Assembly (NCBI GenBank): GCA_022827095.1
Contig: JAJDTP010000021.1
Span: 62,001-126,000 of the forward strand
DNA length: 64,000 nucleotides
DNA from: Dehalococcoidia bacterium
GTDB lineage: Bacteria > Chloroflexota > Dehalococcoidia > Lucifugimonadales > UBA3495
Direction: 5' to 3'
The notes beneath the pieces were generated by a model. The model had not been told where the DNA came from, searched no databases, and worked only from the letters and a program-made list of their open reading frames with translations. This document shows, piece after piece, positions 2,952 through 55,885 of the stretch (position 1 is its first letter; the number at the start of each line of letters is the position of its first letter). The position numbers and the translations under genes are program-made.

Positions 2952-4424
<1,473 letters not shown>

Positions 4425-51982: not shown

Positions 51983-52026
51983 TGTAACAAAAGCGTAATC
52001 AGTTCGTAATTGCCTGTTAACCCGTT
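51983..52026. promoter_or_regulatory. Four tandem 11-bp direct repeats, likely operator of an OmpR-family regulator
   Basis: TGTAACAAAAG, CGTAATCAGTT, CGTAATTGCCT and GTTAACCCGTT follow one another without gaps, each 11 bp with a GTAAY-like core at the same phase. OmpR/PhoB-family regulators bind such 11-bp direct repeats on one helical face; GlnR sites share GTnAC cores. The last unit overlaps the -35 of the regulator's own promoter (-10 TATAAG at 52035-52040), which fits activation or autoregulation. It also lies upstream of sfsA on the other side. Confidence 0.6.
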
Positions 52027-52034
52027 GTGCGCAA

Positions 52035-52040
52035 TATAAG
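52035..52040 (+). promoter_or_regulatory. -10 element of the regulator gene
   Basis: TATAAG, 54 bp before the ATG, immediately behind the fourth 11-bp unit; no separate -35 is seen, so it may need an activator. Confidence 0.4.
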
Positions 52041-52093: not shown

Positions 52094-52786
52094 ATGACAA
52101 CGTACGCAGGTTTCCAACCCACCAACGACGTCGCTCCTCGCGTTCTCCTGCTGGGACAGGGTTGGGAAATGATCCGGAGCGCATTGGCCGCCGCATCCGA
52201 CACCGGCGCAATTGAGTTGATCGGCCCGGAAACCTCCTACGACATCGAAACCGATTCCGGTGCAAACTCCCCGGCGGTATTGCTGTTGTCCCCAGACGCG
52301 GATCATCCTGCGCAACCGGACGACGACAATGGTCCCCTGGTGCTCCGTTGCGTACCCGACGACGAATTGGACCATCCCGACCTGTACGGCGATTCCGACG
52401 ACTTCGTGGCCGTGCCTTGTTCCCCCGCGGAACTCATCAAACGGATCCTGCGCCTGGCCCACCGGCACGCCTCCGCGACTGTTGCGTCCGGTTCCATCCG
52501 CGTCGGCGGCATAGCGCTCAACCCCGCCACCTACCAGGTTACCGCCAACGGCCGACCGGTGGACCTGGCCTGGCTGGAGTTTCAGCTTCTCCAGTTCCTG
52601 ATGGACAACGTGGGCAAGGTGTTCACCCGTGACCAGTTGCTGGCCAACGTCTGGGGCGTCGAAAACATCGGCGGCACGCGCACGGTCGACGTGCACATCC
52701 GCCGCCTGCGCTACAAGCTGGAGAACGGACCCGAAACCTACTTCCGCACCGTCAAGAACGTAGGCTACGGAATGATCGAACCTTAA
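52094..52786 (+). CDS. Atypical OmpR/GlnR-like response regulator
   Basis: A 230-residue regulator with an OmpR-type winged helix at the C-terminus (LAWLEFQLLQFLMDNVGKVFTRDQLLANVWG and TRTVDVHIRRLRYKLENGP, then FRTVKNVGYGM). The N-terminal receiver is degenerate: the acidic pair is missing (VLLLGQG) and the phospho-acceptor region reads AVLLLSPDAD. That is the GlnR situation, where activity does not depend on phosphorylation. No kinase gene is nearby. Candidate operator units stand just upstream. Target genes unknown. Confidence 0.83.
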   Translation: MTTYAGFQPTNDVAPRVLLLGQGWEMIRSALAAASDTGAIELIGPETSYDIETDSGANSPAVLLLSPDADHPAQPDDDNGPLVLRCVPDDELDHPDLYGDSDDFVAVPCSPAELIKRILRLAHRHASATVASGSIRVGGIALNPATYQVTANGRPVDLAWLEFQLLQFLMDNVGKVFTRDQLLANVWGVENIGGTRTVDVHIRRLRYKLENGPETYFRTVKNVGYGMIEP

Positions 52787-54165: not shown

Positions 54166-54807
54166 TCAACTTGAACGCGAACGCCGCAGGACGCGCACGT
54201 TCCACCACGCAATCAGCGGCGTGATCACCACCGTGGGCAGTATCCAGGGCACCCACACCGGCTCCATGTTGACGTTAACCACGGTCACCGCCGTGATGGT
54301 CGCGATGGTTCCGGCCATCATGTTGGTGAGGTGCCGCGAAACCCGCCGCGCTCCACCAGGCTGGGTGCGGTGAAACCGAGCGTCGGCCAAACCCAGCGCG
54401 ATGGCGATACCGCCAAAAACCATCAGGGTTACCCATTGCGAACTTCCGCCCAGCGCGACCACCACCGCGTAACCCCACATCGTCAAACCGGTGATCCCGA
54501 TGGCCGCGACCGCGAGCCAGTCCACCGGATGCGGGCGTCTGTGCCGGTTGCGCGCGAACCGCCAACCAGCGAAAACCAGGTAGAAGCTGAACAACGCGAT
54601 CAGAAAAAGGAACGTGCTGCCGCCCCAAAAGGCCAGCGGCACCGCCGTCAGAAACACCACGGTCATCCCGATCGCGTACACCCGCCCGGCCAGCACGTGC
54701 CAACGTCCGCCCTTGGCTGTCACCAGGGCGAGCGCGGCGGTCGCTAACGAAATCGTCCCGGCGCCGATGTGGACGACGAGGAGCGCCGGGGCGATTATGT
54801 CGGACAT
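54166..54807 (-). CDS. DUF2306-like membrane protein
   Basis: A 213-residue protein with six or so hydrophobic helices; the N-terminal VVHIGAGTISLATAALALVTAKGGRWHVLAGRVYAIGM matches the DUF2306 start (HIGxGTIALxxG, KGGxxHxxxGRVY). Function unknown. Its start lies 13 bases inside the end of the nuclease-HEPN gene, so it may share a transcript with the RusA module. Confidence 0.8.
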   Translation of the reverse strand: MSDIIAPALLVVHIGAGTISLATAALALVTAKGGRWHVLAGRVYAIGMTVVFLTAVPLAFWGGSTFLFLIALFSFYLVFAGWRFARNRHRRPHPVDWLAVAAIGITGLTMWGYAVVVALGGSSQWVTLMVFGGIAIALGLADARFHRTQPGGARRVSRHLTNMMAGTIATITAVTVVNVNMEPVWVPWILPTVVITPLIAWWNVRVLRRSRSS

Positions 54808-55484
54808 TCAACGACGCCGGCGCACTCGATCCATTCATGATATTCGCGCAGCAAGGATCTAACTTTTGCAGTCAGTTCGGCAACTAACTCGCCAGTGAAA
54901 TCTCTTACGTCAAAGCCGTGGGCGATCGCGTTCCGGTATTCCATTATTTTGAATAGGTGGCGGTAATCACTCCGGTCGATGGCACCATGGGCAACAGCCA
55001 TGCCGAGGGTATAGGCCGGATTGGTGGCTCGTTCGACGGCAATACCCTCTGCTTTCACCATCATTCTGACGGTAGCTTCGGCGGCGGTCCAAGCTAGCAG
55101 AAAAGCCGCCTCGTTTAGCCCGGCGTCAAGAGCCGTTTCGGCTTGGGACAACCTGTCCAGGATGCCTACCTCATCAAGGGACGGGGCTTTTTCCACCGCG
55201 TCCAGCCTTTCCGGTTCACCTACTAGCTGGAGAACGAATCTCCAACCGGGTCGGGAATTGATGATGCGCTCGAATTCCTGGAGGCCCGGGTTGGCCGCCA
55301 GCGACGGCCGCGTTTTCACCTCCACAACCTTGATTTCGTAGCCGTCTTTGACCACCATATCGGCACAAAAACCGGGCAGGAAATCAAGCGGCACCTGGCG
55401 TAAAACCTGACAACCCTTGGCAAGATACTCAGCCGCTATGAAATCCGCATGCTGCTTTTCGATGACAGCCAATTCGCCATTCAT
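54795..55484 (-). CDS. PD-(D/E)xK nuclease-HEPN fusion (AHJR-like)
   Basis: A 229-residue protein with two parts. Residues 1-100 look like an archaeal-Holliday-junction-resolvase-like restriction fold: D42, and E55-V-K57 in VVEVKTRPSL, preceded by IAAEYLAKGCQVLRQVPLDFLPGFCADMVV. Residues about 110-215 are helical and HEPN-like with the RNase signature RNAIAH (R184, N185, H189). Fusions of a nuclease-like domain to HEPN recall toxin or defence proteins. The start overlaps the RusA stop by four bases, so the two are coupled. Domain names are from memory and need profile searches. Confidence 0.7.
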   Translation of the reverse strand: MNGELAVIEKQHADFIAAEYLAKGCQVLRQVPLDFLPGFCADMVVKDGYEIKVVEVKTRPSLAANPGLQEFERIINSRPGWRFVLQLVGEPERLDAVEKAPSLDEVGILDRLSQAETALDAGLNEAAFLLAWTAAEATVRMMVKAEGIAVERATNPAYTLGMAVAHGAIDRSDYRHLFKIMEYRNAIAHGFDVRDFTGELVAELTAKVRSLLREYHEWIECAGVVECPT

Positions 55485-55885
55485 AACGGGTCTCCCAAGG
55501 TTGGAGCGTCAACTATACGAACGTAAGTAAACTGGTTGTAGATACGAAGAAATTTGTCAAAAGTCGGCGACGGCCTTGTGGCGCGCAGAGAACCGTTCCA
55601 GTTCCGCACACGACAAAGCAGGTCAGTCACCTGGCTGTCGTCACAATAAACCAGTCCTTTCAGAGCGTCCAGAATGGGCTTAGGAATATTATCAACGTCT
55701 AAGGGTGTAGTGTCAAAAACATAAACAACGCTGATCATTACCGGGCCAGCGACGGGCGGCGAGCCGTCCCAACGGCGTTCGGCCGTGCTCCGTACGTCAC
55801 TGCTCCACTGTCGTAATCGCGCGCGGCGGCGTGTTTGCTGCGACACTGGTGACCCTTCCAGTGCGAATTCAAAAGGCAATACCAT
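55481..55885 (-). CDS. RusA-family Holliday junction resolvase
   Basis: A 134-residue nuclease of the RusA family: EFALEGSPVSQQTRRRARLRQWSSDV at the N-terminus and the Asp cluster DVDNIPKPILDALKGLVYCDDSQV (D63, D65, N66, K69, D73, D82-D83). RusA resolves Holliday junctions and is usually phage-encoded. Here it sits alone with the nuclease-HEPN gene and no phage genes are near. Start ATG 55885 fits the family N-terminus. Confidence 0.85.
   Translation of the reverse strand: MVLPFEFALEGSPVSQQTRRRARLRQWSSDVRSTAERRWDGSPPVAGPVMISVVYVFDTTPLDVDNIPKPILDALKGLVYCDDSQVTDLLCRVRNWNGSLRATRPSPTFDKFLRIYNQFTYVRIVDAPTLGDPL

Follow-up and report, generated by a model that had tools for sequence, protein, structure and literature searches.

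A gapless run of four 11-bp repeats, which stands upstream of the gene for an atypical GlnR-like regulator (P0001), reads as a GlnR-type four-box operator that forms part of a nitrogen-assimilation regulon in an order of Dehalococcoidia. From sequence comparison we consider it probable that the array is the operator of an activator-dependent promoter, that its main activator is a GlnR-type protein encoded elsewhere in the genome, and that P0001 is a second, nitrogen-induced regulator. The earlier note on this DNA had predicted phosphorylation-independent autoregulation; that prediction was not established, and arrays stand ahead of nitrogen genes even where P0001 is absent.

The array and promoter upstream of P0001

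The window is the whole stretch of DNA that was analysed, 64,000 nucleotides in length. Its features that bear on the array are the following:

51983-52026, + strand: four phased 11-bp units, TGTAACAAAAG, CGTAATCAGTT, CGTAATTGCCT and GTTAACCCGTT, gapless, read from the sequence
51984-51988, 51995-51999, 52006-52010 and 52017-52021, + strand: GlnR-type boxes GTAAC, GTAAT, GTAAT and TTAAC, respectively, in 11-bp steps
52022-52031, + strand: 10-nt spacer from the last box to the -10, overlapping the variable part of the fourth unit
52032-52037, + strand: -10-like hexamer CAATAT, with CANNNT at the same offset in 20/20 P0001-type promoters
52094-52786, + strand: P0001, an orphan transcription regulator of 230 aa that is GlnR-like and has a pseudo-receiver (Pfam Trans_reg_C, 3.6e-22)
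52139-52465, + strand: pseudo-receiver, residues 16-124, with the acidic pair, phospho-Asp and Lys all substituted
52349-52351, + strand: codon of the invariant Cys86, where beta-4 of the receiver-like fold ends (by alignment)
52418-52420, + strand: codon of the invariant Cys109, at the end of beta-5, replacing the Phe of the Lys-Pro-Phe motif (by alignment)
52550-52768, + strand: winged-helix DNA-binding domain with the recognition helix GGTRTVDVHIRRLR, a helix also present in a GlnR-type protein encoded elsewhere

The four repeats are perfectly phased and follow one another without gaps, as the earlier note had stated, and its description of an operator of the OmpR-family type also holds: the boxes are of the GlnR type, at an 11-bp phase. 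The common GTAAY core that it gave to all four units applies to the first three boxes and not to the fourth, TTAAC. Nor does the last unit abut the -10 as had been claimed; 10 nt separate the fourth box from CAATAT, and this spacing is conserved. The P0001 start codon, at 52094, lies downstream of both elements. No -35 hexamer was seen in the array promoters; the last boxes sit in its place, and at the P0001 promoter we infer that the array substitutes for it.

The exact triple GTAAY at the 11-bp phase occurs at one site in the window, where matches with up to three mismatches number five against 1.25 expected. A genome-wide motif search of the kind that the earlier note had suggested returned a single exact triple in 3.79 Mb, and none in the control.

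The array is also conserved upstream of orthologous regulators, the outcome on which the earlier note had staked its reading. A search of 60 genomes gave close P0001 orthologues in 17 (own genome included), to which an order-wide search of 197 genomes added four; the array precedes the gene in all 21, which span three families within a single Dehalococcoidia (SAR202-type) order. At 20 of these promoters the relaxed four-box pattern fits with no mismatch (19 promoters) or with one (a single promoter), the array of the 21st genome (G005) having been read separately via a boxes-plus-10 search. Across 12 P0001 promoters from the genus, column identity averages 0.88 over the array and 0.89 over the -10, versus 0.45 upstream and 0.53 downstream. 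In G010 (locus L011, 2501-3201) the P0001 gene is frameshifted, with in-frame stops and a split match, and its array is intact; this locus was excluded from the protein alignments.

Beyond the genus, box 2 of the P0001 promoter changes to TTAAC, TTTAC or GTTAC, and box 4 to GAAAC or GAAAT. The resulting order of boxes is the published GlnR order, gTnAc-n6-GaAAc-n6-GtnAC-n6-GAAAc, as it appears in an excerpt of PMC10704036; for GlnR of S. venezuelae, an excerpt of PMC3087709 gives the form GTnAC-n6-GTnAC. The P0001 array thus has the tandem a-b boxes GTnAC-n6-GnAAC at the 11-bp phase.

Spacing between the array and the -10

Each array was followed out as far as its last phased box, from which we scored the position of [TC]ANNNT over 31 offsets. 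Of the 58 arrays, 50 have this motif exactly 10 nt past that box; the next best offset reaches 8/58. By promoter family, the 10-nt spacing is found for P0001 in 20/20, AmtA in 12/12, AmtB in 7/7, other Amt in 5/8, nasA in 5/10 and urtA in 1/1, where the seven AmtB and the one urtA are retrieved loci only, and where the 58 arrays omit both G005 and the 6 of 29 amt loci that had no usable array. The eight arrays that depart from the spacing include five of the ten nasA arrays as scored. Arrays of 4, 5, 6, 7 and 8 boxes all show it, the nasA array of the own genome being one of 8. Bearing in mind that the 58 arrays are not independent, the spacing is still common to at least five unrelated promoter families.

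Boxes, 10 nt and a -10, with no -35, read as activator-dependent (class II) promoters, a layout known from PhoB. In pho box class II promoters, tandem 11-bp repeats replace the -35 and the last repeat stands some 10 nt from the -10; our arrays match this arrangement, with tandem 11-bp repeats at the -35 and about 10 nt to the -10. They differ from PhoB promoters in their boxes (GTAAC/GAAAC), in their nitrogen targets and in the degenerate receiver of the regulator. The first base of the -10 is C in P0001 promoters (CANNNT, 20/20) and T in those of AmtA (TANNNT, 12/12); the P0001 promoter may have a conserved weak -10 and be weak by design.

Nitrogen-assimilation genes downstream of the array

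In 36 genomes the relaxed four-box pattern gave 26 sites versus none for a reversed control. With one mismatch allowed, 14 genomes of the genus yielded 123 sites versus 26 for the control (8 versus 1 in the own genome), and a search for four boxes, 10 nt and YANNNT in the same 14 yielded 62 versus 1. A model (R1) built only from P0001 arrays recovered the promoters of P0001 and little else; better results came from the box patterns.

The same boxes stand ahead of nitrogen-assimilation genes. Phased arrays precede amt, behind which the glutamine synthetase gene (glnA) then comes (L281, L282), and phased boxes also precede a second amt gene. Allowing up to two mismatches, an array is found in 23 of 29 Amt upstream regions versus 2/29 for the reversed control, a count in which two loci that end at contig ends (L104, L122) were scored at the wrong offset and stand as misses; the G014 amt array was detected in separate pattern searches, despite the 29-locus scoring. 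Another target, nasA, encodes an assimilatory-nitrate-reductase-like protein and is followed by a gene for a NirB-like protein; the top NCBIfam model for the nasA product is NasC, at 827 and 853 bits, which do not reach the cut-off of 1100. A full nasA (at least 69% identity) is present in 10 genomes; its upstream array has at most one mismatch in eight of them and two mismatches in the other two. Further targets are urtAB (UrtA and UrtB both score above the model cut-off), nirA (nitrite/sulfite reductase, NIR_SIR), a P-II gene in G012 accompanied by genes for a molybdopterin-binding protein and an MFS transporter, and a cluster of circularly permuted ATP-grasp (CP_ATPgrasp), transglutaminase and Alpha-E. 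Since this uncultured, marine-type bacterium appears to place the array also at its genes for uptake of ammonium, urea, nitrate and nitrite, P0001 itself looks like a member of the nitrogen-starvation response.

Some sites were set aside. The one at G000:C15:50088, ahead of a phasin-like gene, overlaps the end of the upstream PadR-like gene and was not counted as a target, because coding conservation may account for it; 'phasin-like' and 'PadR-like' are our own reading, and Pfam is blank for the phasin-like protein. The site at G000:C14:153524 recurs in G013, but its gene encodes DUF7700, which has no known function, and the site at G000:C21:58562 has no other support. Rfam searches of three loci gave only sub-threshold matches to animal microRNAs, which we took as chance.

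Several other loci were recorded alongside these. The ATP-grasp/transglutaminase/Alpha-E cluster occurs with an array at G000:C5:359050 (L312) and again at L009, L011, L023 and L025; P0001 is divergent from it in four genomes (G002, G006, G008, G010). An array also stands before a 49-aa open reading frame with one hydrophobic stretch (MIAIAAGAAFVGLFALWVIVPRFILRRHEKS...), at about G000:C8 136742 (L193, 3329-3478, - strand), L192 (3697) and L194 (3642). This frame was read in three genomes, and 12 of the 16 base differences between L192 and L193 fall at third codon positions; a nitrogen-regulated small membrane protein is one possible product. Locus L194, which comes from a genome without P0001 (G003), has three array places within 0.8 kb (3535-4340), one of them on both strands. 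A similar array lies upstream of a hybrid of GAF/PAS-histidine kinase, receiver and winged helix, some 800 aa long (G000:C15:166055, L197; G013:C33, L196), which may belong to the regulon. Within the window, at 54795-55885, an AHJR-like nuclease/HEPN-like protein adjoins a RusA-type resolvase.

P0001 and its two invariant cysteines

The regulator next to the array had been described in the earlier note as GlnR-like, atypical and devoid of the phospho-Asp, and the alignments bear this out: the position is Ser66 in P0001 and Ser, Gly, Ala or Cys in 19/19 family members (Asp, 0/19). The receiver Lys is replaced by Val, Ile, Leu or Ala in all 19, and the Asp of GlnR (Asp50, of the unphosphorylated homodimer) is absent from 19/19. 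When 15 members were searched at E <= 5, Pfam returned no receiver domain, and the GlnR N-terminal domain (PF21695) was found in 0/15. Features of a canonical two-component system are missing, P0001 being without the Asp and the Lys and having SfsA, a DNA glycosylase and a P450 as neighbours. Its best relatives of solved structure are 8hig and 8hih, which we take to be GlnR (their names in the table are 'DNA-binding response OmpR family regulator' and 'Transcriptional regulatory protein'); the alignment covers residues 101-230 only (101 bits for 8hig), that is, the DNA-binding half together with the last receiver strand and helix. P0001 has an OmpR/PhoB-type winged helix with a GlnR-like recognition helix, and its family, in 19 rows, forms a clade of its own (support 100/100).

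This family also has a pair of invariant cysteines. Cys86 is present in 19/19 members versus 0/25 other aligned rows, and Cys109 in 19/19 versus 1/25; they are the sole cysteines in 10 of the 19. By alignment, both adjoin the former phosphorylation pocket, where strands 4 and 5 end, and Cys86 takes the position of the canonical Thr when counted from the strand's Pro, or one earlier according to MAFFT. An AlphaFold2 model of P0001, computed with nine orthologues, has a mean pLDDT of 47, too poor to describe the Cys86-Cys109 geometry. The pair could possibly act as a thiol, metal or ligand switch. A bolder proposal, which we put forward tentatively and think rather improbable, is that P0001 founds a GlnR-like family whose phosphorylation pocket has turned into a switch made of two cysteines, working by disulfide, metal or ligand; it would be induced by starvation via the array, and a redox signal or ligand would then tune the same nitrogen promoters. 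An excerpt of PMC12632262 lists RitR, HP1021 and Cj1608 as orphan pseudo-receiver regulators with functional cysteines; their cysteines lie in the linker or the alpha1-beta2 loop, whereas the two invariant ones of P0001 fall where beta-4 and beta-5 end.

A GlnR-type protein encoded elsewhere

A second GlnR-like protein is encoded at G000:C5, at about 465.3 kb, and in relatives. Its alignment with 8hig, at 125 bits, spans residues 50-221 and so reaches far into the receiver half, and it scores 20.7 bits with the Pfam model GlnR_1st, under the curated cut-off of 27 bits; 10 of 14 GlnR-type relatives of the order match that model at E <= 5. The Asp is retained in 13/14 of this family, the acidic pair is gone, and so, with one exception, is the Lys. 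No array was found in any of 31 regions upstream of the GlnR-type gene, the best matches having three to six mismatches, as in controls. The P0001 and GlnR-type families are separate clades (100/100 and 97/92) with a common recognition helix, GGTRTVDVHxRxLR, so that sequence does not tell one from the other as the binder.

Arrays at amt are kept in six genomes that have no P0001 orthologue (G003, G014, G018, G037, G041, G042); the arrays are therefore independent of P0001, and in those genomes another protein reads them. A GlnR-type protein was read in five of the six (G003, G014, G018, G041, G042). Given such arrays and the presence of a second GlnR-type protein, the array upstream of P0001 is better taken as a sign that the gene belongs to a nitrogen regulon than as an autoregulatory site of its own, and the most parsimonious candidate for the activator is the GlnR-type protein.

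A proposed mechanism and its rivals

We hypothesize that, when nitrogen is limiting, a GlnR-type protein would occupy the array in tandem dimers along a single helix face and would recruit RNA polymerase to the -10. Most likely the G000:C5 protein, whose own gene has no array, is this main activator. It would activate P0001 under nitrogen limitation, with or without help from P0001, which, having the same recognition helix, probably shares or modulates the same sites. Positive autoregulation by P0001 could be added to this scheme and is not required by it.

P0001 might instead be the principal binder, in which case it would regulate itself positively and independently of phosphorylation, and would also drive the nitrogen genes wherever it is present. 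Its recognition helix suits GlnR boxes, and the array stands at the P0001 gene in 21/21 genomes as opposed to 0/31 at the GlnR-type gene. Furthermore, nasA (at least 66% identity) accompanies P0001 in 10 of its 17 genomes, versus 1 (partial) of the 43 that lack P0001, but this co-occurrence is confounded by kinship and is suggestive only (outside the genus, 2/4 versus 1/42). Against these points, amt arrays persist where P0001 is absent, and we judge P0001 unlikely to be the principal binder.

MtrA-, PhoB- and WalR-type regulators also bind 11-bp direct repeats of similar words, which leaves room for a third regulator, and the DNA-binding domain of P0001 scores well against PhoB and MtrA models. 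A canonical two-component regulator of one of these types would make phosphate or envelope stress the signal; however, in one family after another the targets identified serve nitrogen assimilation, and no phosphate gene is among the annotated sites, so we hold this to be very improbable. The least probable account, to our mind, is that the array is a repressor operator that overlaps the promoter and silences it. Some GlnR sites of actinomycetes do repress, according to the title of PMC4140684, but an array in the place of the -35 and 10 nt from the -10, as in 50 of the 58, has the geometry expected for activation. We thus favour an operator for activation by the GlnR-type protein, with P0001 as second regulator.

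Comparison with known systems and implications

The system resembles that of actinobacterial GlnR in its tandem a-b-a-b boxes (GTnAC-n6-GnAAC) at an 11-bp phase and in its targets (amt, glnA, nasA/nirB and urea genes); P0001, like GlnR, is an orphan with a degenerate receiver. It differs in its Chloroflexota host, in arrays of up to 8 phased boxes (our own count), and in that P0001 and the local GlnR-type protein are two different genes. GlnR keeps the Asp for dimerisation, whereas P0001 lacks it and is missed by the GlnR N-terminal model. As a second winged-helix nitrogen regulator beside GlnR, P0001 can also be likened to NnaR/GlnRII of actinomycetes: the title of a reference in PMC12632262 gives nnaR as a GlnR target, and excerpts describe NnaR as having no receiver domain (PMC12632262) and GlnRII as having targets in common with GlnR (PMC10704036). 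P0001, unlike NnaR, carries an invariant Cys pair in a receiver-like domain and belongs to a clade of its own.

Literature searches, judged by counts and titles, found nothing on GlnR in Chloroflexi or Chloroflexota, the two words co-occurring in passing only; by titles, nothing was found on such a regulon among work on regulators or nitrogen in SAR202/Dehalococcoidia. A search of PMC5826061 for promoter terms gave no match.

These comparisons suggest that the GlnR box code reaches beyond Actinobacteria. They provide a base-level promoter grammar for nitrogen control (four to eight phased boxes, 10 nt and a -10, with no -35) that, with its list of targets, concerns an abundant and essentially uncultured lineage of Chloroflexota. 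The P0001 family, with its invariant Cys pair, offers a concrete case for signal sensing by a receiver that is unphosphorylatable; if P0001 does work as a cysteine switch, it would couple nitrogen and redox control in SAR202-type Chloroflexota.
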